A stretch of DNA of 38,567 bases from NCBI GenBank assembly GCA_017881725.1, contig JADGQO010000027.1:1-38567 (forward strand), given 5' to 3'. Under the pieces are notes generated by a model. The model ran no database searches and had not been told where the DNA came from. It saw nothing but the letters and a program-made list of their open reading frames with translations. Shown here one piece after another: positions 367-20,140 of the stretch (position 1 is the stretch's first letter; the number at the start of each line of letters is the position of its first letter). The translations under genes were made by a program, and so were the position numbers. This DNA is from Fibrobacteria bacterium (lineage in GTDB: Bacteria; Fibrobacterota; Fibrobacteria; UBA11236).

Positions 367-1922
367 TTAAGAATCAAACCCCCATATTCATCCGTAACAC
401 GCAGGATACAGGGAAACAGTTTGAACATATGGTTCGGTACCGTAACATCCGTGTCACCACGGGCGGTCGGGACAAAGACTCCAGTTCCACCGATGTCCCA
501 CTCCAATTTTGTTGGTTTCCCGAACATATCCGTTCCCCTTCCTCGCAGGTGCAGCACGGTCCCGGGCATCACGATCGTATCGGGGGAGACCTGGACTGCG
601 GGCGGAGTGTGAACGACATCGATACGGATATCCGCCGGCCAATCGATGCCTGCGTCGTTTGTTGCCACGCAAACTAACGACACCGTTTCGGGTATAAGCC
701 CGGCGGTATACCGTAAGGTATCCGCGCCTGAACCCGCCGCAGAGGCGTATCTCACGATCTTCAGCGTGTCCGTATACGGCAATAAGGTCGGTCGCGTGGG
801 ATCCTCCCCCGCCCGCATGCCATGGGCCGTCCATGTAAGCGCACTGATTTTCCGGTAGGGACTGGAAAAAACGGCGATGATTTGCCCGGACTCGCCTAAA
901 CGCAAGGTCGGGGCTTTCGGGGTTACCGTGACGATGGTCATTAGCGCCGAAGGCGGAGGCACCCTGACTCCCACCGATTCGAACCATTCCCCGAATTTTC
1001 CGCTCTTGGTTTGGACAATCACGCGATATTCCCAGGCTTGCTCCGGGACTCCGCCCGAAAACATGGACCCCAAGGTATCCACGTATTGAGTGTCGGTGAG
1101 GCGGGAGCGATTGATGGGCTGCCCCTGAATGCGCGGGGCGTTGAGAGAATCGCGCAGGACGGCGTAGCCTAGAAGATCGGTCCGCCTGGAGGGATTCCAG
1201 GCGATTTTCACGCGGCTGTTTACGGTATCTATCATCGCCACATGAAGTCCGGTTACCAGGGGGACGCCTTGGTACGGCGGCCGCAAAGTGTCCTTGCGAT
1301 CGGTCCGCGCTCCGGCCTTGATGCTGAAGCCGGTGAACAGGGCCGAGTAGTCCGAAAGGCTGGTGGAGATGACCGCGGCGTAGCTGCCCGCCGCCAGACC
1401 GCCGATTTCGAATCGGCCGTCCTCCCCGACATTGGTGTAGACCGTGGTACCCAAAAGCTGGACCAGGGCAGAGTTGGAATTGTGGTTCGGCTGCAACGCC
1501 ACGAAGCCGGAAAGCGTGCCGGGCAGGGCCAAAGTATCGTTCTTAATCGTCGCGGGACCGTCGTTGACGCGCACGGAATCCTGTAATGCCACAAAATCGC
1601 CTTGCGCCGAAAAGACGTTGTACTGGCCCGCCGGAACCCCGGTCAGATCGTATTTGCCGTCCGCATTGGTTTCCAACTTGTAAACTCCCGCCGCTTCCTT
1701 GGCGAGGCCCGGCTTGGGGTTGTTGTCCACCGGCACGAGTTGCACGCGCGCTCCCGCCGCCGGAGTCCCGTCGGGCCGGAAAATCTTGGGCCCCGCGCCG
1801 CTGCCGGAATCGCCCGTGGGCGCGACCTTGTCGGTTTGACACGCGGAAAAAACCAGCGACAGGCACAGGCCCAGTTTAAGCAGTGGGTTGTAGGGGCTCA
1901 TTAGCGAATGCTTCGCGGGCAT
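303..1922 (-). CDS. Truncated carboxypeptidase-regulatory-like lipoprotein (disrupted by MITE)
   Basis: This is a 539-aa predicted lipoprotein. The N-terminus has a signal peptide ending in LVFSAC (Cys28). Next come carboxypeptidase-regulatory-like beta-sandwich segments (for example PDGTPAAGARV) and a fibronectin-like region. It is a close paralogue of the 866-aa protein just upstream (same ITWNPSRRTDLLGYAVLRD-type block) but stops where that protein enters its kelch propeller. About the last 18 residues, from RVLKKSF to the end, are encoded by the inserted element. I chose the ATG at 1922, which has AGAGGAAG upstream, over the TTG at 1940. The gene starts 14 nt after the stop of 1937-4537, so the two are probably co-transcribed. 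Whether the shortened lipoprotein is still functional cannot be judged from sequence. Confidence 0.8.
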   Translation of the reverse strand: MPAKHSLMSPYNPLLKLGLCLSLVFSACQTDKVAPTGDSGSGAGPKIFRPDGTPAAGARVQLVPVDNNPKPGLAKEAAGVYKLETNADGKYDLTGVPAGQYNVFSAQGDFVALQDSVRVNDGPATIKNDTLALPGTLSGFVALQPNHNSNSALVQLLGTTVYTNVGEDGRFEIGGLAAGSYAAVISTSLSDYSALFTGFSIKAGARTDRKDTLRPPYQGVPLVTGLHVAMIDTVNSRVKIAWNPSRRTDLLGYAVLRDSLNAPRIQGQPINRSRLTDTQYVDTLGSMFSGGVPEQAWEYRVIVQTKSGKFGEWFESVGVRVPPPSALMTIVTVTPKAPTLRLGESGQIIAVFSSPYRKISALTWTAHGMRAGEDPTRPTLLPYTDTLKIVRYASAAGSGADTLRYTAGLIPETVSLVCVATNDAGIDWPADIRIDVVHTPPAVQVSPDTIVMPGTVLHLRGRGTDMFGKPTKLEWDIGGTGVFVPTARGDTDVTVPNHMFKLFPCILRVTDEYGGLILNRVLKKSFRYPENGFELAKSV

Positions 1923-1936
1923 GGAATATCTTCCTC

Positions 1937-4537
1937 TCAATCAAGGGGCGAATACTGGTAAAAGGCCGGCAGGTCCGGGCTTCCCGGGGTTGCGACAGCC
2001 GTATAGGTCAGGATAAAAATGCTGCTGCCCAAGGTGATGGAGGCGAAATGGTCGCCCGTGACGTGATGCATGCTTACTGGTTGATAAATATCGTAACTCG
2101 ACCCTGGTTCTCTCTCAATTTGAAGAAAGCCTGTCTGAGGATCCAGATATAAACTAAACGTGGATCCAGAAATTGATTGAAACTCTATCGTATATCCAAA
2201 TTCGCCTCTCCGAACAGGCAAATTCCACATCCATGACTCGTTGATTCCACTCGCATCAACAAAAAACTCTTGATTATTTTCCCATACCCTGGCACCTCCG
2301 TCCGGGAGCAAAGGCAAAGGTTTAAATCGACCCCATACTGAACTCCACAATTTTGATCCCAGCGACCACATCCCTGTTTCGGGATCAAAACTTGCCACCT
2401 GCCAATTGCAATACACCCCCAAAATACGGTCTTTCGTCACGATCAAATCGGTAGGCAATCCATTCCAAAGGGGTGCCAAATCATAGTACATGAGGCTGCC
2501 TTCAAACCACGGCGCAGAATCATAGGTTGACCAGGAACCAATCGCCGGATCGAACGCCTGGGTGACACCGGCAACTTTGGTTGCTCGGTTCGCTCCTGCG
2601 ACAATGTACAGTTTGTCCTGGAACACCACGGCTGTAAATCGATCGCCCGGTAAGGTAGGTGCTGGAGGCGGCGGTGCAACAACCCATTCGTCCGCGATGG
2701 GATCATAAACTTTCAAGGCATTCCGCGTGGGCATGTACAGCCTTCCATTCAAGGCGTACAGCGGCGCGGCGGTATCGGCAGTCGCTTTGACCTGCCAGGT
2801 TTTGGATGAGGTATCATAAGCCGTAAAGGCGCCAACGGCAGCGGTTCCCCGTCCGCCCAAAACGTAAATCACTCCGCCCAACGTAGCCATATAAGGTTGA
2901 CTTTCCCCCAAGGGCAACCAATCGCGGGGATGTACCGGTCGAGAAGGTAATTGTCGGAACGGGAGGATGTTGACGGAAACCGTTTTCAGGATCAAACTGC
3001 CGTATTCGTCCGTGACCCGCAGGATGCAGGGAAAGGACTTGAATCCCTGGTTCGACACCGTAACATCCGTGTCACCATGTGTGGACGGGACAAACACCCC
3101 CGTTCCGCCGATGTCCCAGGCCAACTTCGCGGCTTTGCCGTACATGTCGGTTCCTTTGGCCCGAAGATGCAGCACGGTCCCGGGCACCACCGTCGTGTCG
3201 GGAGAGACCTGAACAACGGGCGGATTGAGAACCACACCGATATAGATATCCGCCGGCCATTCCATGCCGGCGTCGTCGGTCGTGACGCAAACCAACGACA
3301 CGGATTCGGGCTTGAGCCCGGCGGTATACCGTAACGTATCTGTGCCGGAACTAGGCGGAGCGGCGTATCGTTTCGTCTTCAAGGTGTCCGTATACGGCAA
3401 AGAGACTGCCGATGTGGTATCTTTCCCGAACCGAATCCCCTTGGCCATCCACGTGACCGCGCTGATTTTCCGGTTGGGATTTGAAAAGACGGCGATGATC
3501 TTCCCGGACTCGCCCAACCTCAAGGTCAGGGACATCGGGGTCAAATTGACGGAGGTCATAACCGCCGAAGGCGGCGGCACGTTGACGCCTACTGATTCGA
3601 ACCATTCCCCGTATTTTCCGTTCTTGGCCTGTCCAATCACGCGATACTCCCAGGCTTGTCCCAGGGTTCCGACCGAAAGCGAGGGCGACAGGGTATCCAC
3701 GTATTGCGTGTCGGTGATACGTGAGGGGTTAATGGGCTGCCCCTGGATACGCTGGGTGTTGAACGGATCGCGCAGCACGGCGTACCCCAGGAGATCGGTT
3801 CTCCGGGAAGGGTTCCACGTGATTTTCACCCGGCTGTTCAGGGTGTCCATCATCGCCACCTGGAGACCGGTAACTACGGGAATGCCGATAAAATTCATGC
3901 GGAATGGTTCTTTGATGTCGGTCACCCCACCTATTTGCACGGCGAAGCCGGTGAAAAGGTTGGTGTACTCCGGGAGGATGGTGGAAAACCGGGCGGCATA
4001 CCGGCCCTGGGGCAGTCCACCGATTTCGAAGCGGCCCTGATCGTCCAGGTTCGCGAATACCGTCGTCCCCAGTAACTGCAAGGTTACGGTAGAAGGATTG
4101 TGGTTGGGCTCCAGGGTCACCACGCCGCGGACGGAGCCGGCCGTCCGCAAGGTATCCGGGGGCAGGGCGGTGGAGTCTCCGAAAAGGGTAACGGAGTCCT
4201 GCAAGGACGCCAGATCGCCCTTGGCGGCGATGATGTTATACTGGCCGGAAGGTAAACCCTTCACGGAGAAGGCTCCCTCCGCGTCGGTTTTCAATTTGTA
4301 GATGTCGGCCGATGCCTTGGCGAGGCTCGCTTGCGGCAAATATCCCACGGGAACGACGTGGATTTCCGCGTCCGCCACCGGCTTTCCGTCTTCCCCGAAA
4401 ATGCGTCCCGAGCCGGCGCTGGAAACTTGGGGTTGGGTCACCTGGACAGTCCCGTGCTCGGAGTTGCAGGAGCACAAGAACAGCGCTGCGGCCGCCAGAA
4501 ATGCAGGCGCTTTGGAATGAGGTTGGCTGGTCTTCAT
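1937..4537 (-). CDS. Carboxypeptidase-regulatory-like/kelch-repeat surface lipoprotein
   Basis: This is an 866-aa predicted lipoprotein. The signal peptide ends in LCSC (Cys24). It is followed by a carboxypeptidase-regulatory-like domain (DGKPVADAEIHVVP), a second such repeat (GSVRGVVTLEPNHN), a fibronectin/Ig-like middle, and a C-terminal kelch-type propeller with motifs such as GGVIYVLGGRG and FQDKLYIVAGANR. The ATG at 4537 overlaps the stop of the TIGR02147 gene (ATGA, 4534-4537) and has GGAGG at ideal spacing, so translation is probably coupled. It is likely anchored in the outer membrane and may bind a ligand at the surface, but no substrate can be named. The downstream gene is a truncated paralogue, so this pair arose by tandem duplication. 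Confidence 0.88.
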   Translation of the reverse strand: MKTSQPHSKAPAFLAAAALFLCSCNSEHGTVQVTQPQVSSAGSGRIFGEDGKPVADAEIHVVPVGYLPQASLAKASADIYKLKTDAEGAFSVKGLPSGQYNIIAAKGDLASLQDSVTLFGDSTALPPDTLRTAGSVRGVVTLEPNHNPSTVTLQLLGTTVFANLDDQGRFEIGGLPQGRYAARFSTILPEYTNLFTGFAVQIGGVTDIKEPFRMNFIGIPVVTGLQVAMMDTLNSRVKITWNPSRRTDLLGYAVLRDPFNTQRIQGQPINPSRITDTQYVDTLSPSLSVGTLGQAWEYRVIGQAKNGKYGEWFESVGVNVPPPSAVMTSVNLTPMSLTLRLGESGKIIAVFSNPNRKISAVTWMAKGIRFGKDTTSAVSLPYTDTLKTKRYAAPPSSGTDTLRYTAGLKPESVSLVCVTTDDAGMEWPADIYIGVVLNPPVVQVSPDTTVVPGTVLHLRAKGTDMYGKAAKLAWDIGGTGVFVPSTHGDTDVTVSNQGFKSFPCILRVTDEYGSLILKTVSVNILPFRQLPSRPVHPRDWLPLGESQPYMATLGGVIYVLGGRGTAAVGAFTAYDTSSKTWQVKATADTAAPLYALNGRLYMPTRNALKVYDPIADEWVVAPPPPAPTLPGDRFTAVVFQDKLYIVAGANRATKVAGVTQAFDPAIGSWSTYDSAPWFEGSLMYYDLAPLWNGLPTDLIVTKDRILGVYCNWQVASFDPETGMWSLGSKLWSSVWGRFKPLPLLPDGGARVWENNQEFFVDASGINESWMWNLPVRRGEFGYTIEFQSISGSTFSLYLDPQTGFLQIEREPGSSYDIYQPVSMHHVTGDHFASITLGSSIFILTYTAVATPGSPDLPAFYQYSPLD

Positions 4538-5373
4538 TTTTCCTCCACCTCGCGGCTCAACGGGAACACCTGGAAATTGCATTGGTAGACTCTTTTTTTA
4601 GTGCCGGGTTTTTCGCTCAATGCCAGCAAGCGTTTCCGCAAGGCCTTGATGTCCTCCCGCGCCTTTTCGAAATCCTCGGCTTCCAGCGATACCGTCACCG
4701 AGGAAATATCCCGCTCCTCCTTGGGGTAACGGTCCAATGCCTGGACCCCGAGCTCCATGTTCGCCTTCAGGAAGTTTTCCAAATGGATGGATTTGATGGC
4801 CGCGTCTTTTTTGAGGATGGCGGCGGTGGGGCGGTAAATGCCGTTGGGGTCTACGGCGATGAGATTCAATCGGTCCAGGAGTTGCACGGCCTTCTTGGCC
4901 TGTTCGGGACGGATGGACGGGGACAGGCGTCGCGCCAAATCCGCGAAGTCGCCGCGATAGGGATAGAAAAGCAGGAGTTCCCGGATAGCCGCATGGTACC
5001 ACTTGCTGTAATACTCGAACTTGTCTTTGCCCACCAGATCGATCTTGAGCTCCTTAAAGGCCAGGATCTTTTCCAGGTAATGGTTTTTTTCCTCCAGGGA
5101 ACCCGCTTGCCCATAATGAACCAGGGTTTGGAAAAAATCCTCCTCGTTCGGTTTCAGCTCGAGCAGTTTCGCGAGCTTGACCGAATATACGCCGGTCAAA
5201 GTGATGCGCCCTTTGAGGATGTCCGAAAACCATCCGGTGGAGCTGGCACCCACTTTTTCCGCCACGAATCGATGGGAAAAGCGCGGGCTGTCGGTTTTTT
5301 CGGCCGCGTAGCGTAAACGCAGGTATTCCCGAAAATCCGTGAATTGGAATATATCCGGTCGCTGGGCGGGCAT
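4534..5373 (-). CDS. TIGR02147 / DUF4423 family protein
   Basis: This 279-aa protein belongs to the family first described as a Fibrobacter succinogenes paralogous family (TIGR02147, DUF4423). Diagnostic features are the N-terminal FQFTDFREYLRLRY motif, the KVGASSTGWFSDILKGR segment resembling a helix-turn-helix, and a C-terminal region around ISSVTVSLEAEDFEKARE. There is no signal peptide, so it is cytoplasmic. The family is presumed regulatory because of the HTH-like N-terminus, but its function is not established. It lies between two kelch lipoprotein genes, 83 nt after the stop of the upstream one, and overlaps the downstream one by 4 nt. That arrangement suggests it controls or is tied to expression of these lipoproteins, which is an inference. 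Confidence 0.9.
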   Translation of the reverse strand: MPAQRPDIFQFTDFREYLRLRYAAEKTDSPRFSHRFVAEKVGASSTGWFSDILKGRITLTGVYSVKLAKLLELKPNEEDFFQTLVHYGQAGSLEEKNHYLEKILAFKELKIDLVGKDKFEYYSKWYHAAIRELLLFYPYRGDFADLARRLSPSIRPEQAKKAVQLLDRLNLIAVDPNGIYRPTAAILKKDAAIKSIHLENFLKANMELGVQALDRYPKEERDISSVTVSLEAEDFEKAREDIKALRKRLLALSEKPGTKKRVYQCNFQVFPLSREVEEK

Positions 5374-5379
5374 GCCTAA

Positions 5380-5408
5380 ATAATACTCCGGGAATGCCGC
5401 CAGTTCAG
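5380..5408 (-). promoter_or_regulatory. Candidate internal promoter for the TIGR02147 gene
   Basis: On the minus strand CTGAAC (5408-5403) is followed after 17 bp by TATTAT (5385-5380), resembling sigma-70 boxes. Transcription would start almost at the ATG at 5373, giving a leaderless or near-leaderless message. This is only a sequence match. The gene could equally be read from the upstream operon promoter. Confidence 0.25.
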
Positions 5409-5424
5409 GGATAAATAGTTGGGT

Positions 5425-5447
5425 GGCGCTCGAAAGATTAGAGCGCC
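5425..5447. repeat. Intercistronic hairpin between lipoprotein and TIGR02147 genes
   Basis: GGCGCTC (5425-5431) and GAGCGCC (5441-5447) are perfect arms around a 9-nt loop, 10 nt past the stop of the 784-aa lipoprotein gene. No T-run follows on the minus strand, so it is not a classic terminator. It could act as an mRNA-stabilising or attenuating stem-loop that uncouples levels of the two genes. Confidence 0.5.
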
Positions 5448-5456
5448 GATCCCGAA

Positions 5457-7811
5457 CTATGGAAGGGGAGGATATTCGTACAGGGCGGGCAAGCTGTCCG
5501 CCTGGGGCGACGATTTGTCATAGTATGAAAGGACATACAGCTTTCCGGAAACGACGGTGGACACGAACCTATCTCCTTGACTGTAGATCGCGGAAGCGTG
5601 ACTCCAGGTGCGAACGCCGGGGTCATAGACTTCGACGTTGATTCGATTCGGAGCGGATTCCCACAGGGCATATAATTTCCCGTTCAGGAATTGATAGGTG
5701 CTTTGGGGAGTCGTTACCGTCACGTAAGGGGATGTGAAGGCGCCGGAGATTTGTGGGGCCGGAGCCGAGGTCCACGTTTCCCGATCCATGTCGAAGATCT
5801 CCATAATCGCATTGCCGGCCAGGAAATAATTGAAACCGTTCATTTCGCCCAGGAATTGATAAGGGGAGTATGTATTGGGCATAGAACCAACGGAACTGGT
5901 GGCATTCGTCTCGGGATCATAATCCTGCAACCGAAAGGAATTATCGCTCCAATAAATTTTCGACCGTCCGGGAAATATGACCGAACCGTCGAACATGTAA
6001 TTAATGTACCCTCTATTGACGGATTGATTCGCATCAATATCATAATAGGCGGAACTGCCGTTCGAGTAGTAATAATATCCGGAGTAGGAGCTTATCGCGA
6101 ACGCCACGATTTTATTTTGGAACACCACGTTCGGTCCGGGATGATAAATCGATCGAGAAAATGGCCAGGACGGTTTTTCCACCCATTTGTCTTGAACGGG
6201 GTCATACGCCGTGAGCTTTTCTTCGCTGGTCATAAAGATTTGGCCCGCCGCTAAGATCGGATCGCCCAGGATAGGCGCTTCCGCTATGGAAGTCCATTTG
6301 CCCGTGGCGGGATCAAATGCCGCCGAAGCGCCGTGCGGATCGGCTCCGCTGCCGCCGAAGGTATACAACTTGTCGTTTAACGCGGCGACGGGCATTTCCA
6401 CCGGAAAACTTCCGGCATGGTTATAGGCCGCGATGGGACGGTCCGCCAACCTCTTCCAGGCCACCACAGGAAGACTCAGCGAGTCCTTCCACACCGTCCC
6501 CGCGTCATCGGTAATCAGGACACGGAAAAATTTGTTTCCCACCGTATCGGGCGCGGTGAAGGACAGGCTGTCCAATCCCGCGCTATCGTGATAAGCTTGC
6601 TTCCGCAACACTTGGCCCTTTTTATCCTCCCATGCCAATTGCACGACTTTCCGGGTGGGATTGGCGAAGCGCACTTTCACCACGCCGCGCTCGCCGACCT
6701 GCGTGTATAAAATACTGGTACTGTCCGCGCCGAAATTGATGGCGGTGGTTACACGGGAAGGCGAGACCGCGACCACGGAAACCTTATCAAAGAAGGCTCC
6801 TTGGTTGTCCGACAAATCCTGGATGGCGATGCGGTAAGTGAGCGGGTAGGATGTGGTATCCACAAGGCCGGTCGTGTCATACGTATAAGTCCCGGTGGTG
6901 GGAGAGTAAACCGTTACCGTGTGATGCTGGGGGTAAATGGTGTCGATCCAGACCGTGTCGACGGCACCGAGCCGAATGCTCGGGAGACTGTATTGGCTCC
7001 CATAATAGGGCGGTACTTGCAGGGAAGAAACAAAATAGGGCGTACGCTCCAGGACATAATTCGCCAACCGGGGGAAATTCGCGGCCCGCCAGGAAATCCG
7101 CGCCAGGCCATGCAAGGTGTCCAGAGTGACCGTCAGGCCTTTCACGGTCGGAATACCGGTATAGGGCGGCTCCCATGCCTGCGCGGCGCTGTCCTTTCCG
7201 CCAGCGGAAACCTGGGCGGAAAATACCGCGGTGCGATATCCGGAACCCGTGGCGGAAACGCGCACGCGATAGCGGCCCTGGGGCATGCCCGCGAATACAA
7301 AGCCCGCTTTGGGATCGGGTAAGGCGATGAAGGGCGAGCCCTGGATTTGCAATTGGAAATTTCGGGGATCGTCGAAGGGTTGGATGGCGAGTTTGCCGGT
7401 AAACGCCCCGACCGGCCGCAGGGTGTCGGCGGGAACGACGGTGGAGTCTACGGCCACCGAGACCGAATCGCGCCAGGAAGCCAAGCCTGAGCTTTCGATA
7501 AGGATATTGTAAAGCCCGGGCGACAATCCGGTAATGACGTATTCCCCTTTGCCATTCGTGTGCGTGAGGACGGGCGTGGAGGCGACGGCGGACCGTTTCC
7601 CCAAAGCGTCTTCGGGTTGGGGAAGATAATCCGCCGGGAAAACGCGCACTTTGGCATCGGCCACAGGGTTGTCGTTCCCGGTGAAAACCGCTCCGCTGAG
7701 GAGCGGGCCGGGCGGGACGTTCAGCGGCGCCACGGTGTCCGAATTATTGCAAGCGGACAAAATCAAGGCAAACATCCCGACGGCGGACATGCCTTTGAAT
7801 GAAGTTTTCAT
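5457..7811 (-). CDS. Carboxypeptidase-regulatory-like/kelch-repeat surface lipoprotein (first gene of operon)
   Basis: This is a 784-aa predicted lipoprotein. The signal peptide ends in LILSAC (Cys21). After it come carboxypeptidase-regulatory-like segments (NPVADAKVRVFPADYLP), a middle Ig/fibronectin-like region, and a C-terminal kelch-type propeller (ALNDKLYTFGGSG, FLNGKLYALW). It has the same architecture as the 866-aa lipoprotein but is more diverged in sequence. I chose the ATG at 7811 because GGAG lies 6 nt upstream. The TTG at 7823 lacks such support. A TATATT -10 box and two dyads lie upstream. It is followed by a hairpin and the TIGR02147 gene. Outer-membrane or surface location is likely; no ligand can be inferred. 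Confidence 0.87.
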   Translation of the reverse strand: MKTSFKGMSAVGMFALILSACNNSDTVAPLNVPPGPLLSGAVFTGNDNPVADAKVRVFPADYLPQPEDALGKRSAVASTPVLTHTNGKGEYVITGLSPGLYNILIESSGLASWRDSVSVAVDSTVVPADTLRPVGAFTGKLAIQPFDDPRNFQLQIQGSPFIALPDPKAGFVFAGMPQGRYRVRVSATGSGYRTAVFSAQVSAGGKDSAAQAWEPPYTGIPTVKGLTVTLDTLHGLARISWRAANFPRLANYVLERTPYFVSSLQVPPYYGSQYSLPSIRLGAVDTVWIDTIYPQHHTVTVYSPTTGTYTYDTTGLVDTTSYPLTYRIAIQDLSDNQGAFFDKVSVVAVSPSRVTTAINFGADSTSILYTQVGERGVVKVRFANPTRKVVQLAWEDKKGQVLRKQAYHDSAGLDSLSFTAPDTVGNKFFRVLITDDAGTVWKDSLSLPVVAWKRLADRPIAAYNHAGSFPVEMPVAALNDKLYTFGGSGADPHGASAAFDPATGKWTSIAEAPILGDPILAAGQIFMTSEEKLTAYDPVQDKWVEKPSWPFSRSIYHPGPNVVFQNKIVAFAISSYSGYYYYSNGSSAYYDIDANQSVNRGYINYMFDGSVIFPGRSKIYWSDNSFRLQDYDPETNATSSVGSMPNTYSPYQFLGEMNGFNYFLAGNAIMEIFDMDRETWTSAPAPQISGAFTSPYVTVTTPQSTYQFLNGKLYALWESAPNRINVEVYDPGVRTWSHASAIYSQGDRFVSTVVSGKLYVLSYYDKSSPQADSLPALYEYPPLP

Positions 7812-7860
7812 GTTGGACTCCAAGTTGCAGAAAAACGATTGGGAAGCACGATACTGCGTG

Positions 7861-7894
7861 AATATACCATTTGGACGATTCCGGATCGGAATCG
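7861..7894 (-). promoter_or_regulatory. Promoter with operator-like dyad upstream of the lipoprotein operon
   Basis: On the minus strand a TATATT -10 box (7866-7861) lies about 50 nt before the start codon at 7811. A perfect dyad, CGATTCCG (7876-7883) and CGGAATCG (7887-7894) with a 3-nt centre, covers the position expected for the -35 box, and no good TTGACA match is visible there. A dyad over a weak -35 box is the usual layout for regulator control, either repression or activation. The binding protein is unknown; the TIGR02147 product is an obvious candidate. Confidence 0.5.
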
Positions 7895-7896
7895 GT

Positions 7897-7919
7897 TGTC
7901 ACCATTTTTAATGGTGACA
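7897..7919. repeat. Palindrome copy 1 (ACCATT-aaa-AATGGT core)
   Basis: Arms TGTCACCATT (7897-7906) and AATGGTGACA (7910-7919) are a perfect 10-bp inverted repeat around three T residues. It lies 56 nt beyond the stop of the Wzi-like gene and directly beside the operator-like dyad of the lipoprotein operon. The core recurs at 18101-18123 and 28038-28052. No T-run follows on either strand, so a protein-binding site fits better than an intrinsic terminator. Confidence 0.65.
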
Positions 7920-7975: not shown

Positions 7976-9517
7976 TCACCATCCGAGGCTGACATCTAGC
8001 CCTCCCCGCCGGCCCTCTCCGTGGCCCCAACCCTCGGACCACCATAGACGGGCCTCGGCAAAGCGACTGTAGAAGCAAGCCAGCTCCTGGGTAGCCCGCC
8101 AGGTCGAGCGCGCGTCCCCCAGCCATTCCTTGGTGAGCCCATCGATGGCGTCGTTATGGATGGTCCCCAGAACGGCCTGACGTCCGACGCCCTTCTCATT
8201 CCACTCCCAGCGTTCGCGGGCCTGCAAGTATCGCCACGGCCGCCAGCTCGCCTGGACGTCCACGCTGCGTGAATCCGGGCCGAGTTTGCTTCCGCTCACC
8301 ACGTTGTATTGTTTGAAACTCGTCTGGGGTTCGCGCCCGTTGTACGTCCAGGGTTCGACATGGGAATACTCAAGGACCAGGTCCGCATCGGCCCACTGCG
8401 ACGGCAAAACCCATTGCATCCCCGCCAGGCCGGCCCAACGGTTTTCCCAGAAGGTATCGAAAAAACTGGTCGGTCCAAGCAAATCGTCGAGGAACAGCTC
8501 GCCCCATACCGAAACGCCCCATGGGGACGCGTAGGTCGCGTCGAAGGCCATGGCCGCATTGTCGCGCCCGCCGCTATTGGCTTCCGAAAATGTGAGCGGT
8601 ACGAAGGGGAGCAAATAGGCCGGGTCCGGGTCGCGCCCTTCATAAATGACGATGTCCTGATAGGCCAAAGCCAAGGACCTTAAGGGCTTGAACTCCAGGC
8701 GATGGAGGTTGGCGTATTTTTGGATTCCATAATCCGTGTCCGTCATCTTGAGCAGGTAATCGTCGAGTTGCAGCCACGGCGCGAAATCCATCCTGCCCTC
8801 CACCAGGTAATAGGGAGGCGTTTCGCGGCCGGCGGTAAGCGAAGAAAAGTATCCTGGGCCCATATGGACATGATCCCGGCCGGCCTTGATCGACCACCAA
8901 TCCTGGTCATATTTCACGTAATATTCGAAGCGGTTGTATGTGCGGTAATCAAGCAGCGAATCACCGGCCCCCTTTTCAACCGAGTAGGTCTCCCCATATT
9001 CCGGATCGAACTGATGCGTAAAGCGCGCCTTGTCCACCTTTTCCGTGTAGACCAGTGCATGGGTGAAATAAGTCAGCCGTCGGCCCACAGTCCCATAAAT
9101 GCGAGCGCCCAGGGCGGTGACCAGATCCGATCCCAAGGTATCGCCTCCGTTGCCTTGGGATCCCGAAAACTCGATTAGGGGGGAGACCAGGAAGGAATTG
9201 CCCCTAACCGTATCCGACCAATGCCCCAGCTCACCGCCCGGGAATGGGCGTCCCGTCAAGAGAAACACCGAGTCATACGCCGATAGACGAGCGGAGTCCA
9301 GGTAACCGCGGAGGGACTGGGCGGATTGCGGAAAGACTTGATCCGGGAAAAGTGCTCCGGTGCGCGTTTGGACTCGACGCAGCGACTGGAAGGCGGGACT
9401 GTCGGCGGCGACGTCCAGGTCGGGCGATGTAGATGTTGCCGCGCTTGCGGCCGAGAACCCTATAGAAACCGCCAGCCAGGCGGCAAGCAGCCTGACCGCA
9501 ATCTCTCGGTCTTTCAG
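7976..9517 (-). CDS. Wzi-like outer-membrane capsule assembly beta-barrel protein
   Basis: The product of about 513 aa resembles capsule-assembly Wzi-family barrels. It has a Tyr/Trp-rich beta-strand pattern and a KAGRDHVHMGPGYFSSL segment typical of the family; E. coli Wzi is about 480 aa. It probably sits in the outer membrane and helps retain surface polysaccharide. The first conventional start in frame, GTG at 9268, would cut off a clear signal peptide, which is readable upstream as RLLAAWLAVSIGFSAASA. I therefore extend the gene to a CTG at 9517, preceded by GGGG; an ATT at 9502 is the alternative. No ATG, GTG or TTG exists in the added part. The CTG lies next to the gmd stop, which suggests coupling. 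Its neighbours (gmd, Wbp-type genes) support a polysaccharide role. Confidence 0.75.
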   Translation of the reverse strand: MKDREIAVRLLAAWLAVSIGFSAASAATSTSPDLDVAADSPAFQSLRRVQTRTGALFPDQVFPQSAQSLRGYLDSARLSAYDSVFLLTGRPFPGGELGHWSDTVRGNSFLVSPLIEFSGSQGNGGDTLGSDLVTALGARIYGTVGRRLTYFTHALVYTEKVDKARFTHQFDPEYGETYSVEKGAGDSLLDYRTYNRFEYYVKYDQDWWSIKAGRDHVHMGPGYFSSLTAGRETPPYYLVEGRMDFAPWLQLDDYLLKMTDTDYGIQKYANLHRLEFKPLRSLALAYQDIVIYEGRDPDPAYLLPFVPLTFSEANSGGRDNAAMAFDATYASPWGVSVWGELFLDDLLGPTSFFDTFWENRWAGLAGMQWVLPSQWADADLVLEYSHVEPWTYNGREPQTSFKQYNVVSGSKLGPDSRSVDVQASWRPWRYLQARERWEWNEKGVGRQAVLGTIHNDAIDGLTKEWLGDARSTWRATQELACFYSRFAEARLWWSEGWGHGEGRRGGLDVSLGW

Positions 9518-9518
9518 G

Positions 9519-10556
9519 TTAAACCCCGAAAGCCTTCAAATCAGCCTTCATCATGATCTCGACGAGCTTCTCGAACTTGACCTTAGGCTCCCAGCCCAAC
9601 TTTTTCCGGGCCTTGGTCGGATCTCCCAAAAGCAATTCCACTTCCGAGGGGCGGAAGAATTTCGGATCCACTTCGACGATGACCTTGCCGGTTTTTTTAT
9701 CCCGGCCCACCTCGTTCACGCCCTGGCCTTCCCATTGGATGTCATACCCGGCATACGGCGCGGCCTTCTCGATAAACTCGCGGATGGTATGCATCTCGCC
9801 GGTGGCGGCCACGTAATCGTCCGGCTCCGGCTGTTGTAGCATCATCCACATCATCTCCACGAAGTCCTTAGCATAGCCCCAGTCCCGTTTGGCGTCCAGG
9901 TTGCCCATGCGCATGGTTTCCTGCAAGCCGGCTTTAATCTTGGCCATGGAGAGGGTCACCTTGCGCGTTACGAAATTCTCGCCGCGCCGCGGGCTTTCAT
10001 GGTTGAACAGGATGCCGTTGCTGGCGTGCATGTTATAAGACTCGCGGTAATTCTTGACGATCCAATAAGCGTACAGCTTGGCCACGCCGTAGGGCGAACG
10101 CGGATAGAACGGCGTGTTTTCGGTTTGGGGAATCTCCTGGACCTTGCCGAAAAGCTCGGACGTGGAGGCTTGGTAGACACGAGCGTTCAACTTATTGCTG
10201 CGTACCGCTTCCATCAGGCGCAAAACGCCGGTGGCATCCACGTCGGCGGTAAACTCAGGGGAGTCAAAGGAGACTTGCACATGGCTTTGAGCGGCGAGGT
10301 TGTAAATCTCATCGGGTCGTACTGCGGTCACAATGCGGTTGAGGCTACTGGAGTCGCCCATGTCGCCATAGTGCAGATCGTAAACCAATCCGGTTTTCCG
10401 GGCCTGATTGCGGGCATCTTCAATTCGGTCGCGGTTGAACAGGGACGTACGCCGGATGATGCCGTGCACGTCGTATCCTTTTTCCAGGAGCAACTCCGCC
10501 AGATAAGAGCCATCCTGCCCTGTAACACCGGTTACGAGGGCTACTTTCTTTGCCAT
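9519..10556 (-). CDS. gmd: GDP-mannose 4,6-dehydratase
   Basis: The 345-aa protein converts GDP-D-mannose to GDP-4-keto-6-deoxy-D-mannose, the first step toward GDP-fucose, GDP-rhamnose or perosamine donors. It is an extended short-chain dehydrogenase. The N-terminal NADP-binding motif [10 protein letters not shown], the [11 protein letters not shown] motif, the catalytic YGVAK and the [20 protein letters not shown] block are all diagnostic. The ATG at 10556 is chosen, with AAGGA at good spacing; upstream codons in the frame are not protein-like. No GDP-fucose synthase or other follow-on enzyme is in the window, so the final sugar cannot be named. It precedes the Wzi-like gene on the same strand, which fits capsule or O-antigen synthesis. 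Confidence 0.96.
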
Positions 10557-10693
10557 ATAGAGATTCCTTTTCGCTCCCGCCGAGATTTTTGGGTTCTGAA
10601 ACCCACCCCGTTGTAGGCTTTTCGCCTGCTTCCCAACCACATTTTAGCCCAAGGAAAATAGAAAAAAAGCCCTTTCTTGCTAACTTTCCCCCC

Positions 10694-11989
10694 ATGAAGA
10701 TTCGCGTCGGACTGATTGGTTTGGGGACCGTGGGCTCGGGTGTTTTGGACCTCCTGGAGCAGCATCGGGCTTTCTTCACCAAGGAGCTCGGATTCGATTT
10801 CGAAGTGGTGGCCATTTGCTCCCGCTCGCAAGCGCGCCTGGATCGATTCAAAGCGCGCGCGCCCTGGGCAACGCGCGACCCCTTGGCCTTGGCGGCCAAC
10901 CCCAACGTCGACGTAATCGTAGAGGTCGCGGGAGGCGACACGCATCCGAAAGCCTGGTTGGAGTCCGCCTTCGCGCATAAGAAGCACGTGGTCACCGCCA
11001 ACAAAGCCCTCTTGGCCAAGCACGGCAAGGAATTGTTCCCCCTGGCCGCCAAACAGGGTTGCTTCCTGCTTTTTGAAGCGGCGGTGGGCGGGGGCATCCC
11101 GATTATCCGGACCTTGCAGGAAAGTTTCATCGGCAACGATATTCACGGGCTGGCCTGCATCATCAACGGAACTTGCAATTATATCCTGACGGAGATGACG
11201 CGCGGCAAATTGCCTTTCGCGACCGCGCTGCAGCGGGCGCAGGAGTTGGGTTACGCGGAGGCGGACCCGGCTTTCGACATCGAAGGCACGGACTCGGCGC
11301 ATAAGGTGGCGCTGCTCGCGTCCTTGTGTTACGGGCGCCGCGTGGACGTGGAGGACATGTCGGTGGAAGGCATCACATCGGTGTCGGCCATGGACATCGA
11401 AATGGCCGAGGAGCTGGGCTTCTGCATCAAGCTCTTGGGCACGGTGTCGCAAGACAAGCAGGGGCGTATCCAGGCGGACGTGTATCCGGCCTTGCTCGAG
11501 AAGCGGCATCAATTAGCCACGGTAGATGGAGTGTTGAACGCCGTGTTCCTCAAGACTTCGGCGGTCGGACCCTTGTTGCTGACGGGCGCGGGAGCGGGCA
11601 AGTTGCCGACCGCGAGTTCGGTGATATCGGATCTCGTCGCGCTGGCGCGGCAATTGGCGACGGGCAATCCCAAGCCCATGAACATGGGGTTCTTTGCCGA
11701 TGCCCATCATGCGAAGTTGTTGCCCATCGATGAATTGGAGACGGAGTTCTACTTGCGGCTCACGGCGGTCGACAAGCCCGGGGTGCTGGCCAAGGTGACG
11801 GCCATCCTCGGTGAGGAAGGAATCTCCATACGCGCCTTGATGCAAAAACCCGAGCATGATCCGGAAAACGTGCCGGTGATTTTCCTGACGCATACGGCCA
11901 AGAACGCCCATGTGCGGCGGGCCTTGCAGCGCATCGACGCGCTGGATATCATCCGCGCGCCCACGCAGGTAATCCGGTTTTACAAATAG
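10694..11989 (+). CDS. hom: Homoserine dehydrogenase
   Basis: The 431-aa protein reduces aspartate semialdehyde to homoserine with NAD(P)H, the branch step toward threonine and methionine. Visible features are the N-terminal dinucleotide motif GLGTVGSG, the conserved TANKALLAKHG segment, the IINGTCNYILTEM motif, the YAEADPAFDIEGTDSAHK substrate-binding block, and a C-terminal ACT domain (LRLTAVDKPGVLAKV) that usually mediates allosteric feedback by threonine. The start is the ATG at 10694 just before MKIRVGLIG; no strong Shine-Dalgarno sequence precedes it. It is divergent from gmd, with a 137-bp shared upstream region, and is a housekeeping gene among surface-polysaccharide genes. Confidence 0.96.
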   Translation: MKIRVGLIGLGTVGSGVLDLLEQHRAFFTKELGFDFEVVAICSRSQARLDRFKARAPWATRDPLALAANPNVDVIVEVAGGDTHPKAWLESAFAHKKHVVTANKALLAKHGKELFPLAAKQGCFLLFEAAVGGGIPIIRTLQESFIGNDIHGLACIINGTCNYILTEMTRGKLPFATALQRAQELGYAEADPAFDIEGTDSAHKVALLASLCYGRRVDVEDMSVEGITSVSAMDIEMAEELGFCIKLLGTVSQDKQGRIQADVYPALLEKRHQLATVDGVLNAVFLKTSAVGPLLLTGAGAGKLPTASSVISDLVALARQLATGNPKPMNMGFFADAHHAKLLPIDELETEFYLRLTAVDKPGVLAKVTAILGEEGISIRALMQKPEHDPENVPVIFLTHTAKNAHVRRALQRIDALDIIRAPTQVIRFYK

Positions 11990-12050
11990 GACGTTGGCTA
12001 AAGCCGGCGGTTAGGAAAAAGCCCTGTGTCGCGCGGCGCGATCTTAAAAC

Positions 12051-12368
12051 TCACTCCAGGTTTTCGACGTCCAGCAGGTCTTGTGGTCGGCCCGCAGCTT
12101 TCTTGTTTTGGATCAAATGCGCTTTGGAAATAATGGGCACGTTGAGTCCGAAGAAATCCGCTTCGATCCGGCCCGCAAGAATATCGGAGTTGTCCACGCC
12201 ATCCAAAGACGTGATGAGGTCGATGAGGATATCCATGTCGCCGGTAAATCGCGGATAGCCGTGGTAAGCTACTGCGTAACCGCCGACCAGGGCAAAGTCA
12301 ACTTTTTCTTCGAGTAATAAGGTTTAGAACTCTTTGAAGTCTCGGTTCAGATTCTTGTCTGGATTCAA
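12051..12368 (-). pseudogene. Decayed MNT/DUF6036-like nucleotidyltransferase
   Basis: On the minus strand the reading starts at a TTG (12368) with GGAGG upstream. It gives an N-terminus ending DFKEF, a TAA stop (12326-12324), then in the same frame KVDFALVGGYAVAYHGYPRF and TGDMDI, the nucleotidyltransferase GG and DxD signature. The sequence then jumps directly to LIDLITSLDGV and continues to a typical end, GRPQDLLDVENLE. Family members usually have tens of residues between DxD and the DLITS region, so an in-frame deletion is likely in addition to the stop. Such proteins commonly form two-gene modules with a small partner, as here. It is almost certainly inactive. Confidence 0.7.
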
Positions 12369-12486
12369 AATATTGCCTCCGTAGAAAGGCCATCGCATCC
12401 AATCGCTTCGAAGTCGTCCGGGAAAGCCAGTACTCCTTATCGACGCTTGGATCATGAAGCTTACGTATGGATACATGGCGCTGCAA
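12298..12486 (-). CDS. Small partner protein of the nucleotidyltransferase module
   Basis: The 62-aa reading contains KLHDPSVDKEYWLS and LDAMAFLRRQYF followed by RLQRVLNLITRR. This pattern is familiar from small proteins encoded next to DUF6036-like nucleotidyltransferases. Their function is not settled, and a toxin-antitoxin-like role is possible. The TTG at 12486 is my preferred start; the ATG at 12552 would add an unconserved segment overlapping the epimerase gene. Its 3' end overlaps the N-terminal part of the decayed nucleotidyltransferase in another frame by about 70 nt. It may be an orphan after loss of its partner. Confidence 0.55.
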   Translation of the reverse strand: MQRHVSIRKLHDPSVDKEYWLSRTTSKRLDAMAFLRRQYFESRQESEPRLQRVLNLITRRKS

Positions 12487-12526
12487 TGAATTTTCCGATG
12501 ACTTCACGTTTGCCTCTATCCTAATC

Positions 12527-13627
12527 TTAATCCAAAAATTCCTCGATCGCATCCGCGATGACCAGCGAGCAATCCTTCGGAAAATCGATCGCCAACTTTT
12601 GGATCCGTGCGTAATCCTCCAGGCTATCCAGCCAGGGCTGCGCCGCTGTCAAGATGGCGTTGAAATCCGTGCCCGTGAGTTTCAAAGCGCCGGCGCGGAC
12701 ATAATGCATGTATTCGGTCTCCTCGCGAATTACTAACGCGGGTACGCGCAGGACGGCGGCCTCTTCCTGCATGCCGCCGGAGTCGGTCACGCAGAAGCGC
12801 GCATTCTTCATCAGGCCGATCATCTCCAAATAGCCGACGGGATCGATGACGCGGATGCCGGGGCTTTGGAAAGCCAAACCGAATTCCGCCATATTCTTGA
12901 CCGTGCGGGGATGCAGGGGAATCATCACGGGGCATTTCGCGGCGATGGCTTCGAGCGCGCGCACCACTTCCGCCAACCTGCCGCGCTCATCCACGGTTTC
13001 CTGGCGGTGCAGGGTGGCGAGGACGTAACCGGCGTGTGACAGGCGGCGGCGGGCCAATAGTTCCAGGTCGTCGACCAGGGCGGCCGTGCGGCGGCAACTG
13101 TCCACCACGGTATTTCCCGTCACGCGCCAGCGTCCGGACGCGATGCCCTCCGCGCGCAGGTTATCCGCGTCCGCTTCCGTGGGCACGAACATCAAATCAC
13201 TGAGGCGATCGACCACCAGGCGGTTGACTTCCTCGGTTTGCCGGGGATTGTGCGACCGGCAGCCGGCTTCGACGTGGATGAGGCACATGCCGTCCGCTTT
13301 GTGCTTCGCGGCCGTCAGGGCGGCTCCCAAGGTGGTATTGGTGTCGCCATGGACCACGACCGCGTCGGGCTTGTGCAGCTGGAGAAGCGGCTCCAGGCGT
13401 TGCATGAGCATTCCGACCTGTTCGGCCGGAGGCAGGCCGCCGCAGGCCAAGACCGCGTCGGGTCGGCGCAGCTTGAGTTCGTCGAAAAACACCGCGTCCA
13501 TATTGGGCGAATAGTGCTGCCCGGAATGGATCAGCAGATGCCGGAAGCGCACGTCGAAGAGCGGAACCAGCGGGGACATCTTGATGATCTCCGGGCGGGT
13601 GCCGATGACGGTCATCAGGGTTTTCAT
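12527..13627 (-). CDS. wecB: UDP-N-acetylglucosamine 2-epimerase family (WecB/WbpI-like)
   Basis: The 366-aa protein is a non-hydrolysing UDP-sugar C2 epimerase. Features are the N-terminal TVIGTRPEIIKM, HGDTNTTLGAA, the active-site block HVEAGCRSHNP with EEVNR, and the C-terminal VTDSGGMQEEA motif that binds the UDP moiety. WecB makes UDP-ManNAc; WbpI epimerises UDP-2,3-diacetamido-glucuronate. The next two upstream genes are WbpD- and WbpB-like, so context favours the WbpI substrate, although sequence alone does not decide. The start ATG (13627) lies 10 nt after the acetyltransferase stop, so the three genes form an operon. It is cytoplasmic. Confidence 0.9.
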   Translation of the reverse strand: MKTLMTVIGTRPEIIKMSPLVPLFDVRFRHLLIHSGQHYSPNMDAVFFDELKLRRPDAVLACGGLPPAEQVGMLMQRLEPLLQLHKPDAVVVHGDTNTTLGAALTAAKHKADGMCLIHVEAGCRSHNPRQTEEVNRLVVDRLSDLMFVPTEADADNLRAEGIASGRWRVTGNTVVDSCRRTAALVDDLELLARRRLSHAGYVLATLHRQETVDERGRLAEVVRALEAIAAKCPVMIPLHPRTVKNMAEFGLAFQSPGIRVIDPVGYLEMIGLMKNARFCVTDSGGMQEEAAVLRVPALVIREETEYMHYVRAGALKLTGTDFNAILTAAQPWLDSLEDYARIQKLAIDFPKDCSLVIADAIEEFLD

Positions 13628-13637
13628 GGCCGGGTCT

Positions 13638-14144
13638 TCATTCGAGATCGCGGATGCGCTCCCCCAGCTTGTCGATTTCCGCGACGGGCCGCGCGGGATT
13701 GCCCATCACCAGCGTATAGGGCGGCACGCTTTTGGTCACCACCGCGCCGGAAGCGACCATGCAGTATTCACCCAGTTCGATTCCGCAGATGATGGTGGCG
13801 TTGGCGCCGATGCTGGCCCCGGTCTTAACCAGCGTAGGCAGGATTTTCCAATCCGTGTTGAAGGCGCGCGGCACGCGGTCGTTGGTGAAAACGGCGTGGG
13901 GTCCGACGAACACGTCGTCTTCCAGGGTGATCCCGTGGTAGACGGAGACGCCGTTCTGGATCTTGCAGCGGTCGCCGATTTTGACTTTGTGATCGATGTA
14001 ACAGTCCTTGGAAATGATGCAACCGGCTCCGACTTCCGCATCTTCCCGCACCTGCGCGTTGATCCAGATTTTGGTTCCGACCCCGATTTTTGCCTGGGGA
14101 GAAACGGAGGCGGTCGGATGGATATACGCGGAATCGCTGGGCAT
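13638..14144 (-). CDS. WbpD-like UDP-amino-sugar N-acetyltransferase
   Basis: The 168-aa protein is a left-handed beta-helix (hexapeptide-repeat) acyltransferase, with repeats running from about residue 12 to 150 (for example [25 protein letters not shown]). Its length and the ending [10 protein letters not shown] match acetyltransferases such as WbpD/WlbB, which acetylate the 3-amino group of UDP-2-acetamido-3-amino-glucuronate using acetyl-CoA. The ATG has AAGGA 6 nt upstream. It sits between the oxidoreductase and epimerase genes expected for that pathway. The aminotransferase that would make its substrate is reduced to a stub at 15071-15169, so its substrate must come from another locus or the step may be lost. 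Confidence 0.88.
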
Positions 14145-14171
14145 CGGAATCCTTATTTCGGTGGTTCGAGG

Positions 14172-15071
14172 TTATTTCTGCTGTTCGATGATTTCCAGGG
14201 CGCGCAAACCGTCCACGCCCATGGCCAATTCGCCCGGCTCCCCGGTCACCACGTAGTTCAGGAAGGCCGCCAATTCGCTCAGGAGCGGCTCGGTCTTGGG
14301 GACGAAGCAATCCCTGTGGATGAAGGCGTTGTTCATGGTGTAGGACGAGTATTCGACCAACTCCTGGGACATGAGGTTGGCCTCGTAATAGGCCTCGGCC
14401 GTGGCCACTTCGATTTTGCGCTTCTTGAAAGGCGTCAGCCAGTTGGTCGTAATGCCGGCGACCACGTCGCGTTCCAGTGAAAAGGACAAGACGGCGTTGT
14501 CCTCGTGATGGTCGGCGATCTTCCGGGATTTATGGATGGAAGAGTCGGTGATTTCGCGCTTGGAAATGTAGCGGATCAAATCGATGTCGTGCACGGAAAG
14601 ATCCGTCAACACACCCACGTCCGCGATGCGCGGCGGGAACGGGCCCACGCGCGTGATCTGGATGCTGTACAGCTCCTTGCCCTCCAGCTCCTTGATGAGC
14701 GCCGTGACCACGGGATTGAAGCGTTCCACGTGCCCGACGGCGAGCTTCACGTCGTTCTCGCGCGCCAGGCGGAGCAGTTCCAGGCCTTCCGCCACCGTGG
14801 AGGCCAGCGGTTTTTCGATGAGGACGGGAATTTTCCGCGCCAGGAATTTCCGGGATACCTCCGAATGCAGGAAGGTCGGCACACAGATGATGGCCGCGTC
14901 CGGGGTGACGGCTGCGAGCAGCTGATCCACGTTATGGAACAACGGCTCCTCGTAGGCGTGCGTCGGGGCGGACTCACAGAGCGCCACGATTTGGATCCCC
15001 GGGATTTTTTTGACGACGCGGTAATGGTTTTTGCCCATGGAACCGAGTCCGATGATGGCCAAGCGCAGCAT
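14172..15071 (-). CDS. Gfo/Idh/MocA oxidoreductase, WbpB/WlbA-like
   Basis: The 299-aa NAD-dependent sugar dehydrogenase has the N-terminal Rossmann motif IIGLGSMGKNHYR, the EKPLA motif of the Gfo/Idh/MocA family (IEKPLAST), and the VGHVERFNPVV and DLSVHDIDLIRY blocks. WbpB/WlbA enzymes oxidise C3 of UDP-N-acetyl-glucuronate, which is then transaminated and acetylated. The ATG at 15071 is preceded by a perfect GGAGGTGA Shine-Dalgarno sequence, and shares its A with the TGA of the 32-codon upstream stub, so re-initiation is likely. It is followed by the acetyltransferase and epimerase genes. Confidence 0.9.
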   Translation of the reverse strand: MLRLAIIGLGSMGKNHYRVVKKIPGIQIVALCESAPTHAYEEPLFHNVDQLLAAVTPDAAIICVPTFLHSEVSRKFLARKIPVLIEKPLASTVAEGLELLRLARENDVKLAVGHVERFNPVVTALIKELEGKELYSIQITRVGPFPPRIADVGVLTDLSVHDIDLIRYISKREITDSSIHKSRKIADHHEDNAVLSFSLERDVVAGITTNWLTPFKKRKIEVATAEAYYEANLMSQELVEYSSYTMNNAFIHRDCFVPKTEPLLSELAAFLNYVVTGEPGELAMGVDGLRALEIIEQQK

Positions 15072-15169: not shown

Positions 15170-15195
15170 TGCCGGGTTACCCAATTAAAGAGTTC

Positions 15196-15201
15196 ATTAT
15201 A
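15196..15201 (-). promoter_or_regulatory. Consensus -10 box for the amino-sugar operon
   Basis: TATAAT on the minus strand lies 27 nt upstream of the ATG of the aminotransferase stub and could drive the stub plus the three downstream genes. No convincing -35 hexamer is seen 16-18 bp upstream, so the promoter may need an activator or belong to another class. Confidence 0.45.
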
Positions 15202-17779: not shown

Positions 17780-17783
17780 TAAG

Positions 17784-18071: not shown

Positions 18072-18100
18072 GTCTCGTACGGCGGTAGGGAGTAGCCGAT

Positions 18101-20116: not shown

Positions 20117-20140
20117 TCTATCTCCAAGTCGCGAAGTTTT

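Follow-up and report, generated by a model that had tools for sequence, protein, structure and literature searches.

Proteins of the TIGR02147 family are probably XRE-type activators of the operons that encode them together with their lipoprotein partners, acting as one-component regulators with a predicted DNA-binding domain. The locus from which this proposal starts lies in the window (the whole stretch of 38,567 nucleotides analysed here, from a Fibrobacteria bacterium) and comprises the following features, for which gene calls and start sites come from our own heuristic and the position of the TATTAT element was counted from the sequence.

7976–9268, minus strand: Wzi-like capsule assembly protein, the upstream neighbour
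7876–7919, minus strand: two dyads, TGTCACCATTAAAAATGGTGACA and CGATTCCGATCCGGAATCG, upstream of lipoprotein A
7811–5457, minus strand: lipoprotein A, 784 aa, with CarboxypepD_reg and kelch matches
5428–5444, minus strand: predicted 17-bp operator GCTCTAATCTTTCGAGC, which begins 71 bases ahead of the regulator's start codon
5380–5385, minus strand: predicted −10 element TATTAT, 51 bases past the operator centre, with no recognisable −35
5373–4534, minus strand: TIGR02147 regulator, 279 aa, between two CarboxypepD_reg/kelch lipoproteins
4537–1937, minus strand: lipoprotein B, 866 aa, with CarboxypepD_reg and kelch matches, in ATGA overlap with the regulator
1901–303, minus strand: lipoprotein C, 5′ part, its frame broken by a small inverted-repeat element
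about 246–372, no strand: MITE-like element with inverted ends, inside lipoprotein C

An earlier note had described a regulator sandwiched between two such lipoproteins and coupled to the second by ATGA; every gene it named is present on the minus strand, and the overlap is exact, with the regulator stop and the lipoprotein B start sharing 4537–4534. The lipoproteins are also, as claimed there, duplicated and diverging (identity is 63% between B and C over 483 residues and about 30% between A and B over 433). Lipoprotein C, just outside 1937–7919, the span of that note, is a mosaic: its first 667 bp share 93% identity with a gene of contig C180 and the remainder is B-like, with B-like sequence resuming at 9–244 beyond the inserted element, which has one more near-full copy elsewhere in the genome. 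The sandwich is a local arrangement, the orthologous regulator being preceded by an A-like lipoprotein in genome G003, by a divergent gene in G001 (locus L124) and by the lipoprotein of another regulator's pair in G004 (L121). Because lipoprotein A lies upstream of the predicted operator, it is probably carried on its own transcript.

Among the loci examined, the association of TIGR02147 with a lipoprotein gene is close to universal in Fibrobacterota. In the window's own genome a lipoprotein-like gene follows 20 of the 22 assessable codirectional TIGR02147 genes, against 29 of 145 ordinary pairs (23 genes, one dropped at a contig edge; a split gene, of which a single 63-aa piece was called, counts as one, and the contig-end fragment L079 was left uncalled); L064 and L077 of this genome have no adjoining lipoprotein gene. 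The corresponding figures are 26/27 against 20/90 control pairs in relatives, 29/30 (three orthologue groups) against 0/2 in a same-class genus taken for Fibrobacter, and 46/48 against 30/188 at named scan loci (54 genes, less two at edges and four with an opposite-strand neighbour), the scan and relative sets having contigs in common. Of 40 further loci from the same genus, retrieved afterwards, 39 show the pairing, with L223 a doubtful case among them. A neighbour tabulation had been suggested as a check on the regulator–lipoprotein link, which it supports at the Fibrobacterota loci examined. Where the genome title names another phylum, the product of the next gene has, judged by eye, a GNP-type stretch after a Cys at 12 of 30 loci (CGTExGNP, for example).

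The window regulator is a full TIGR02147 member, scoring 249.6 bits where the cut-off is 50 (residues 6–274, covering model positions 2–271 of 272), and matches DUF4423 at residues 114–272. That the family is expanded holds: the window's genome has 26 matches to the model (22 genes near full length, one gene split in three and a contig-end fragment), five genomes of the same genus have 34–84 each, and the six together span 25 to 84. The supposition that the protein is HTH-like is borne out by its N-terminal part, a DNA-binding-type fold in which helices at residues 34–41, 48–53 and 61–70 adopt the XRE-like arrangement, recognition helix included, that is present in TIGR02147; a winged-helix-like region (about 110–190) and long C-terminal helices follow. 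These relationships come from structure comparison with VIA-align, and families absent from its list may still be relatives. At the sequence level, HTH_3 matched 4 of 52 family members (best E 0.0099), the window member not among them, and in a sequence search of the PDB the family profile reached E 0.36 at best. Sequence libraries name TIGR02147 (Fsuc_second) and PF14394 (DUF4423) only as a paralogous family and a domain of unknown function, and the entries returned contain neither the operator, the partner box nor the mechanism proposed here. A literature search for the name TIGR02147 found no paper; DUF4423 is named in PMC12546842, in a passage that mentions Bd3700.

Upstream of TIGR02147 genes we find a 17-bp palindrome, GYTN-N9-NARC, in 16 of 58 clusters compared with 28 of 559 controls (p = 2.8e-7), with no enrichment of GYT palindromes at any of the nine other lengths between 13 and 22 bp. 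A stricter form, GCTC-N5..13-GAGC, precedes 17 of 47 genes from the genus and its relatives and 16 of 368 controls, all 17 having exactly N9. When TANNNT was sought 20–74 bases past the operator centre, 30 of 45 occurrences (33 upstreams, orthologues included) fell at 48–53, placing the −10 element about 51 bp from the centre with a peak at 50–53. Palindrome and −10 occur together in 14 of 69 clusters and 16 of 559 controls (p = 3.7e-7), and at shifted offsets in 1, 1 and 2 of 69 (p 0.03–0.11). The match to a −35 element (2.40 of 6, background 2.31) indicates promoters without one. Site plus −10 is lacking in 57 of 71 clusters; the conserved upstream elements of other groups are TGTTCC-GGAACA, GTATTC-GAATAC, GTGTTC direct repeats or none recognised, and the operator site is missing from all 18 genes taken from genomes whose titles name other phyla.

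Clusters were built at 60% identity with one member each, so that orthologues near 50% remain and independence is incomplete, and upstreams under 140 bases were excluded. The GYT/17-bp rule was framed after inspection of the data; among clusters new to the analysis the site occurs in 2 of 11 (p = 0.11 against 28/559), a test set that is too small. Most control genes were drawn from loci chosen for TIGR02147, and control matches near the family arise partly by construction. Since the 28 control matches at 17 bp exceed those at other lengths (5–12), sites seem to be present among the controls as well; of the 16 control genes with site and −10, three genes are counted twice, having been fetched in duplicate, and two are divergent from a TIGR02147 gene. 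Dyad searches of single upstreams without footprinting were weak alone (16/116 at p ≤ 0.05, orthologues kept), and exact direct repeats upstream of TIGR02147 genes of the window's genome gave no signal (2/21 at p ≤ 0.05).

In the window, 5428–5444 is the main conserved block upstream of the regulator in four orthologous loci and is likely to be its operator. The target suggested previously, the pair of dyads at 7876–7919, does not hold up: the dyads are real, but lie upstream of lipoprotein A, have the wrong form for the 17-bp GYT type and were not found upstream of the G003 orthologue. They were not scored as terminators. The palindrome between lipoprotein A and the regulator was also considered as a terminator of A, a reading rejected on finding the same palindrome at the same distance in L124, where no A lies upstream.

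A single further copy of the window 17-mer exists in the genome, ahead of a methyltransferase gene on C180, and the G003 counterpart of that gene has a GCTC palindrome upstream; a control search with the 17-mer read backwards, at up to two mismatches, also gave one match.

The palindrome varies with the recognition helix, and from this we infer DNA binding. All nine clusters with a GCTC operator share one helix type, carried by two other clusters as well, a pattern framed after seeing the data. Across 14 clusters, helix and operator distances are correlated (Mantel r = 0.50, p = 0.008), and remain so after removal of rest-of-protein similarity (r = 0.37, p = 0.010), which is itself correlated with the operator (r = 0.32, p = 0.04).

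We propose that a TIGR02147 protein would use its N-terminal HTH to bind, presumably as a dimer, the palindrome, which measures 17 bp in the group that includes the window's regulator. The centre of this site would lie about 62 bp before the start of transcription of the operon that encodes the regulator, the promoter having a −10 and no −35. The protein would thereby activate its own gene and the lipoprotein gene or genes that follow, often in translational coupling; where the palindrome recurs nearby, as at some loci, a few neighbouring genes would be activated too. The window regulator would thus activate itself and lipoproteins B and C from 5428–5444, as well as the methyltransferase gene on C180.

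An autorepressor acting on the same operon through the same palindrome would draw on the same palindrome and HTH evidence, and the XRE/HigA-type relatives listed by structure comparison are largely repressors. We nevertheless consider repression unlikely: the site centre, about 51 bp before the −10, lies beyond the core promoter, and the promoters have no −35. Class I activators bind upstream of the core promoter at promoters without a −35, and activation is favoured here because the site occupies that position. For a class I site, expected at about −61, the comparison is with predicted starts: the operator-to-−10 distance peaks at 50–53, the match to a −35 stays at background level, and both site and −10 are seen in 14 of 71 clusters. 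The likeness to activators such as CRP (a palindrome predicted near −62, no −35) is one of position only, with no sequence relation claimed, and TIGR02147 would be a local rather than a global regulator. From XRE/HigA-type regulators it differs in its extra winged-helix-like and long-helix C-terminal half, in a next gene of lipoprotein type instead of a toxin, and in its predicted activator position.

The linked lipoproteins have in common a box after the acylated Cys, about GGGxTETxN. With a PSSM trained without the window's own genome, 12 of 20 linked lipoprotein-like genes there score at least 7, compared with 1 of 61 unlinked (p = 2e-8), and the box is nearly confined to TIGR02147 operons in the DNA sampled. 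Lipoproteins A and B of the window have no clear box, theirs being degenerate (scores −0.7 and −2.8). Codon third positions vary, so the box is a protein motif, and a role as a DNA operator is ruled out. Three of the 12 other-phyla proteins with a GNP-type stretch score at least 7 with this motif. In a literature search no paper combined three or more of Bdellovibrio, lipoprotein and three box strings; papers with a box string alone may exist. The Bacteroidota lipoprotein export signal, K-(D/E)2 or Q-A-(D/E)2 (PMC5080379), is likewise a short motif adjoining the lipidated Cys, in that case of exported lipoproteins; unlike it, the box is tied to regulator operons in the DNA sampled and, judged from its consensus, departs from the pattern in having no K among the top residues of any column and one acidic-dominated column plus a mixed E/G column.

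The box raises a second question, and may serve surface sorting or feedback sensing. In Fibrobacterota and beyond, the box, at the mature N-terminus of a lipoprotein or secreted partner not yet exported, could bind TIGR02147 in the cytosol and tune the activator, so that each pair would sense export on its own, a loop that we regard as unlikely. It is consistent with the near-confinement of the box, with the GNP-type stretches at 12 of 30 other-phyla loci and with the secreted, apparently non-lipidated proteins with a GGNGGD-like stretch that follow TIGR02147 at 5 of 30 other-phyla loci (Bdellovibrionales, Bacteriovorax), partners that pure lipoprotein sorting leaves unexplained.

It is very unlikely that TIGR02147 is instead a cytosolic chaperone or translation partner of the coupled lipoprotein, with the palindromes belonging elsewhere. 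Close adjacency, including a 4-base overlap in 6 of the 22 codirectional pairs of the window's genome, and a box beside the signal peptide that could be a recognition handle would suit it, but the HTH and winged-helix-like folds, the covariation of palindrome and recognition helix and the same palindrome before non-lipoprotein genes nearby argue against it. A phase-variable or swapping surface-antigen system is barely credible: the duplicated, mosaic lipoproteins invite it, but lipoprotein C fits ordinary gene conversion between paralogues, no recombinase was noticed by eye in the ORF lists, and neither an invertible nor a slippage-prone repeat was found within the limits of the search. These covered the 25 longest of 61 inverted-repeat pairs, none an invertible promoter segment (the only close pair of long inverted arms near the operon start is the insert in lipoprotein C, elsewhere), and tandem repeats, with homopolymer runs covered from about 15 bases upwards; the only tandem repeat found is 19 bases × 2 inside the lipoprotein A gene. 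The earlier idea of a regulator for swapping or tuning presumed surface lipoproteins therefore survives in its regulator–lipoprotein tie, through pairing, fold and covariation, and not in its swapping or phase component.

If TIGR02147 proteins are activators of this kind, a large set of transcription factors that have gone unrecognised would come to light. A target could be predicted for every one of them and, in some groups, the operator and the residues that determine specificity as well, and a large unexplained Fibrobacter-type gene family would gain a testable role.

We place the TIGR02147 gene of the window on the minus strand among three lipoprotein genes (A, B and C), in the following arrangement:

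7811-5457, minus: lipoprotein A, gene call, with matches to CarboxypepD_reg and kelch repeats
5373-4534, minus: TIGR02147 protein, full-length family match, with DUF4423 in its C-terminal part
4537-1937, minus: lipoprotein B, overlapping the regulator gene through ATGA, with matches to CarboxypepD_reg and kelch repeats
1901-303, minus: lipoprotein C, gene call, with a CarboxypepD_reg match
246-372: MITE-like element whose inverted ends are CAGGGTGTTGAAAAAG; it interrupts the lipoprotein C gene
7876-7919: pair of neighbouring dyads lying upstream of lipoprotein A, not scored as terminators
5428-5444: predicted operator GCTCTAATCTTTCGAGC upstream of the TIGR02147 gene, by the palindrome rule
5385-5380: predicted -10, TATTAT, after the predicted operator

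The layout described in the earlier note, a regulator between lipoproteins and ATGA-coupled to the second, is thus present, and its view of the lipoproteins as duplicated and diverging holds, B and C sharing 63% identity over 483 residues. Within C, the first 667 bp (window 1260-1926) match a gene of contig C180 in the same genome (locus L125, 684-1350) at 93% identity, and the remainder is B-like; together with the B–C identity, this makes the lipoproteins mosaic, and the make-up of C suggests recombination among lipoprotein genes. In the own genome (G000), the MITE-like element has one further near-full copy at 97% (G000:C18:232-357) and several end fragments on other contigs. An equal arrangement, with similar neighbours, occurs in the same-genus genome G003 (A, regulator, B and another lipoprotein), in which the regulator is 68% identical and the lipoproteins have changed more (A 32%, B 41% identity).

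TIGR02147 was present in 61/61 genomes searched, from the window's own out to the class, and in 0/14 named controls. Pairing was scored for each TIGR02147 gene found by the gene caller, asking whether the product of the next same-strand gene has a hydrophobic stretch and then a Cys at its start. The proposed association of regulator and lipoprotein was borne out by tabulating neighbours: a lipoprotein-like gene came next for 20/22 TIGR02147 genes in the own genome, 26/27 in relatives and 46/48 in named loci from the genome scan (the last two sets share contigs), and for 29/30 in a same-class genus taken for Fibrobacter, whose 30 loci are the top-scoring ones in three orthologue groups rather than a random sample. 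Ordinary codirectional pairs gave 29/145, 20/90, 30/188 and 0/2, respectively. Three of the misses (L037, L128 and L143, the last two being the same gene) do have the Cys by eye, and 40 loci added later, all from five same-genus genomes, gave 39/40, with L223 doubtful. Some partners (L158, L160, L166, L168 and L169) carry unusual residues (Q, H, R) directly before the Cys, so that ordinary lipobox rules miss them. At G000:C6:21765-22566 in the own genome, a TIGR02147 gene is broken into three frame pieces, yet a lipoprotein with a box-like stretch comes next even there.

Upstream of orthologous regulators, short conserved dyads or repeats stand out from otherwise poorly alignable DNA. GCTC-N5..13-GAGC precedes 17/47 TIGR02147 genes compared with 16/368 others in own and related genomes, with a spacer of exactly N9 in 17/17. 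The 17-bp form GYTN-N9-NARC precedes 16/58 regulator clusters (grouped at 60% identity) versus 28/559 other genes (p=2.8e-7); none of the nine other palindrome lengths between 13 and 22 was enriched there, and clusters new to the analysis, a set too small to serve as confirmation by itself, had the palindrome in 2/11 (p=0.11). With the palindrome chosen regardless of any -10, and lying 52 to 117 bases from the start codon, 30/45 TANNNT matches 20-74 bases after its centre (33 upstreams) fall at 48-53. Palindrome and -10 together mark 14/69 clusters versus 16/559 (p=3.7e-7); shifted offsets of 28-33, 38-43 and 58-63 mark 1, 1 and 2 of 69 (p 0.03-0.11). No -35 element was apparent (mean match 2.40/6 against a background of 2.31; four or more matches in 2/30 only). 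Elsewhere in the family, repeated GTGTTC copies lie upstream of regulators with a G[LF]YxD helix (L033-L035, L039-L041, L045-L048, L050-L053, L055-L056), and TGTTCC-N-GGAACA precedes a second, GLYxD-helix group (L153, L157, L158, L160, L165).

In four orthologous upstream regions, the predicted window operator is the principal block of conservation. That it might be the terminator of A is ruled out by locus L124 of the same-genus genome G001, where a divergent gene instead of A precedes the palindrome. The dyads at 7876-7919, put forward earlier as the regulator's site, are not of the family operator type. A genome search with the window 17-mer at up to two mismatches found two places, both exact; the pattern written backwards, used as a control, has one match. 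Besides the window site, the 17-mer stands on C180, where a methyltransferase-domain gene, located past two more lipoproteins of this type, begins 72 bases after it. In G003, a similar protein at the corresponding position carries GCTCTGAAGATTAGAGC at -71. By synteny with G003, C180 probably continues the window locus. Five relatives likewise have a GCTC palindrome with a -10 in front of another gene close to a regulator–lipoprotein pair, a nearness that is partly by construction, since the loci chosen for TIGR02147 supplied most of the control genes; judged from their complete sequences, two of these proteins resemble histidine kinases. In a stretch of the own genome without TIGR02147 (L202, G000:C15), GCTCTTTTTCCGAGAGC and a correctly spaced -10 precede L202_12, a secreted-looking protein and possible remote target.

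Class I activators provide a yardstick in site position and promoter type. The predicted palindrome near -62, counted from predicted start sites, and the promoter without a -35 would agree with their geometry; because of these features and the self-proximal site, the TIGR02147 protein would fit an autoregulated class I activator. Action as a repressor stands well behind, and we place the activator well ahead.

The linked lipoproteins share a short box after the Cys. From 86 linked lipoproteins, with the own genome left out, a gapless motif eight residues wide was learned; its approximate consensus is G-G/T-x-T/S-E/D-T-x-N, and its start mostly lies 5 to 13 residues downstream of the Cys. In the own genome, 12/20 linked and 1/61 unlinked lipoprotein-like genes score >=7 (p=2e-8), the unlinked sample covering part of the genome: 0/19 in 20 stretches without TIGR02147 (only 10 of these 19 genes pass a stricter lipobox test) and 1/42 within TIGR02147 loci. 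Codon third positions vary in the box, so selection acts on the protein. The window's own lipoproteins score low (B -2.8, A -0.7). Beyond the box, nine partners differ from one another, with CarboxypepD_reg and kelch, DUF2341 and LamG-type domains, or nothing recognised. Among 30 loci in eight genomes titled as other phyla, 12 downstream lipoprotein-like genes have, by eye, a GNP-type stretch (only 3 score >=7 on the Fibrobacterota motif); five (L261, L269, L270, L278, L282; Bdellovibrionales and Bacteriovorax) have an apparently non-lipidated secreted protein with a GNGGD-like or GGNGGD-like stretch, by eye, after the signal peptide; and the remaining 13 have neither type, an opposite-strand neighbour, a contig edge or no gene called.

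The box may be either a mark for sorting or surface display, as LES is in Bacteroidota (PMC5080379), or a handle that lets the regulator sense its partner. We lean weakly towards partner sensing, because the box is nearly restricted to regulator operons and apparently non-lipidated variants exist in some Bdellovibrionales and Bacteriovorax.

Both elements, local activators and N-terminal tags on lipoproteins, are of known kinds. In the literature searched, TIGR02147 was not found, DUF4423 appeared in one paper, as an annotation in the passage concerned, and no description was found of the operator code, the box, or the combination of local activator and lipoprotein box. Window 7976-26098 looks like an envelope polysaccharide cluster, with a Wzi-like protein by Pfam and, by eye only, a GDP-mannose dehydratase, a UDP-GlcNAc epimerase and a sugar transferase; such surroundings would suit a role at the cell surface.
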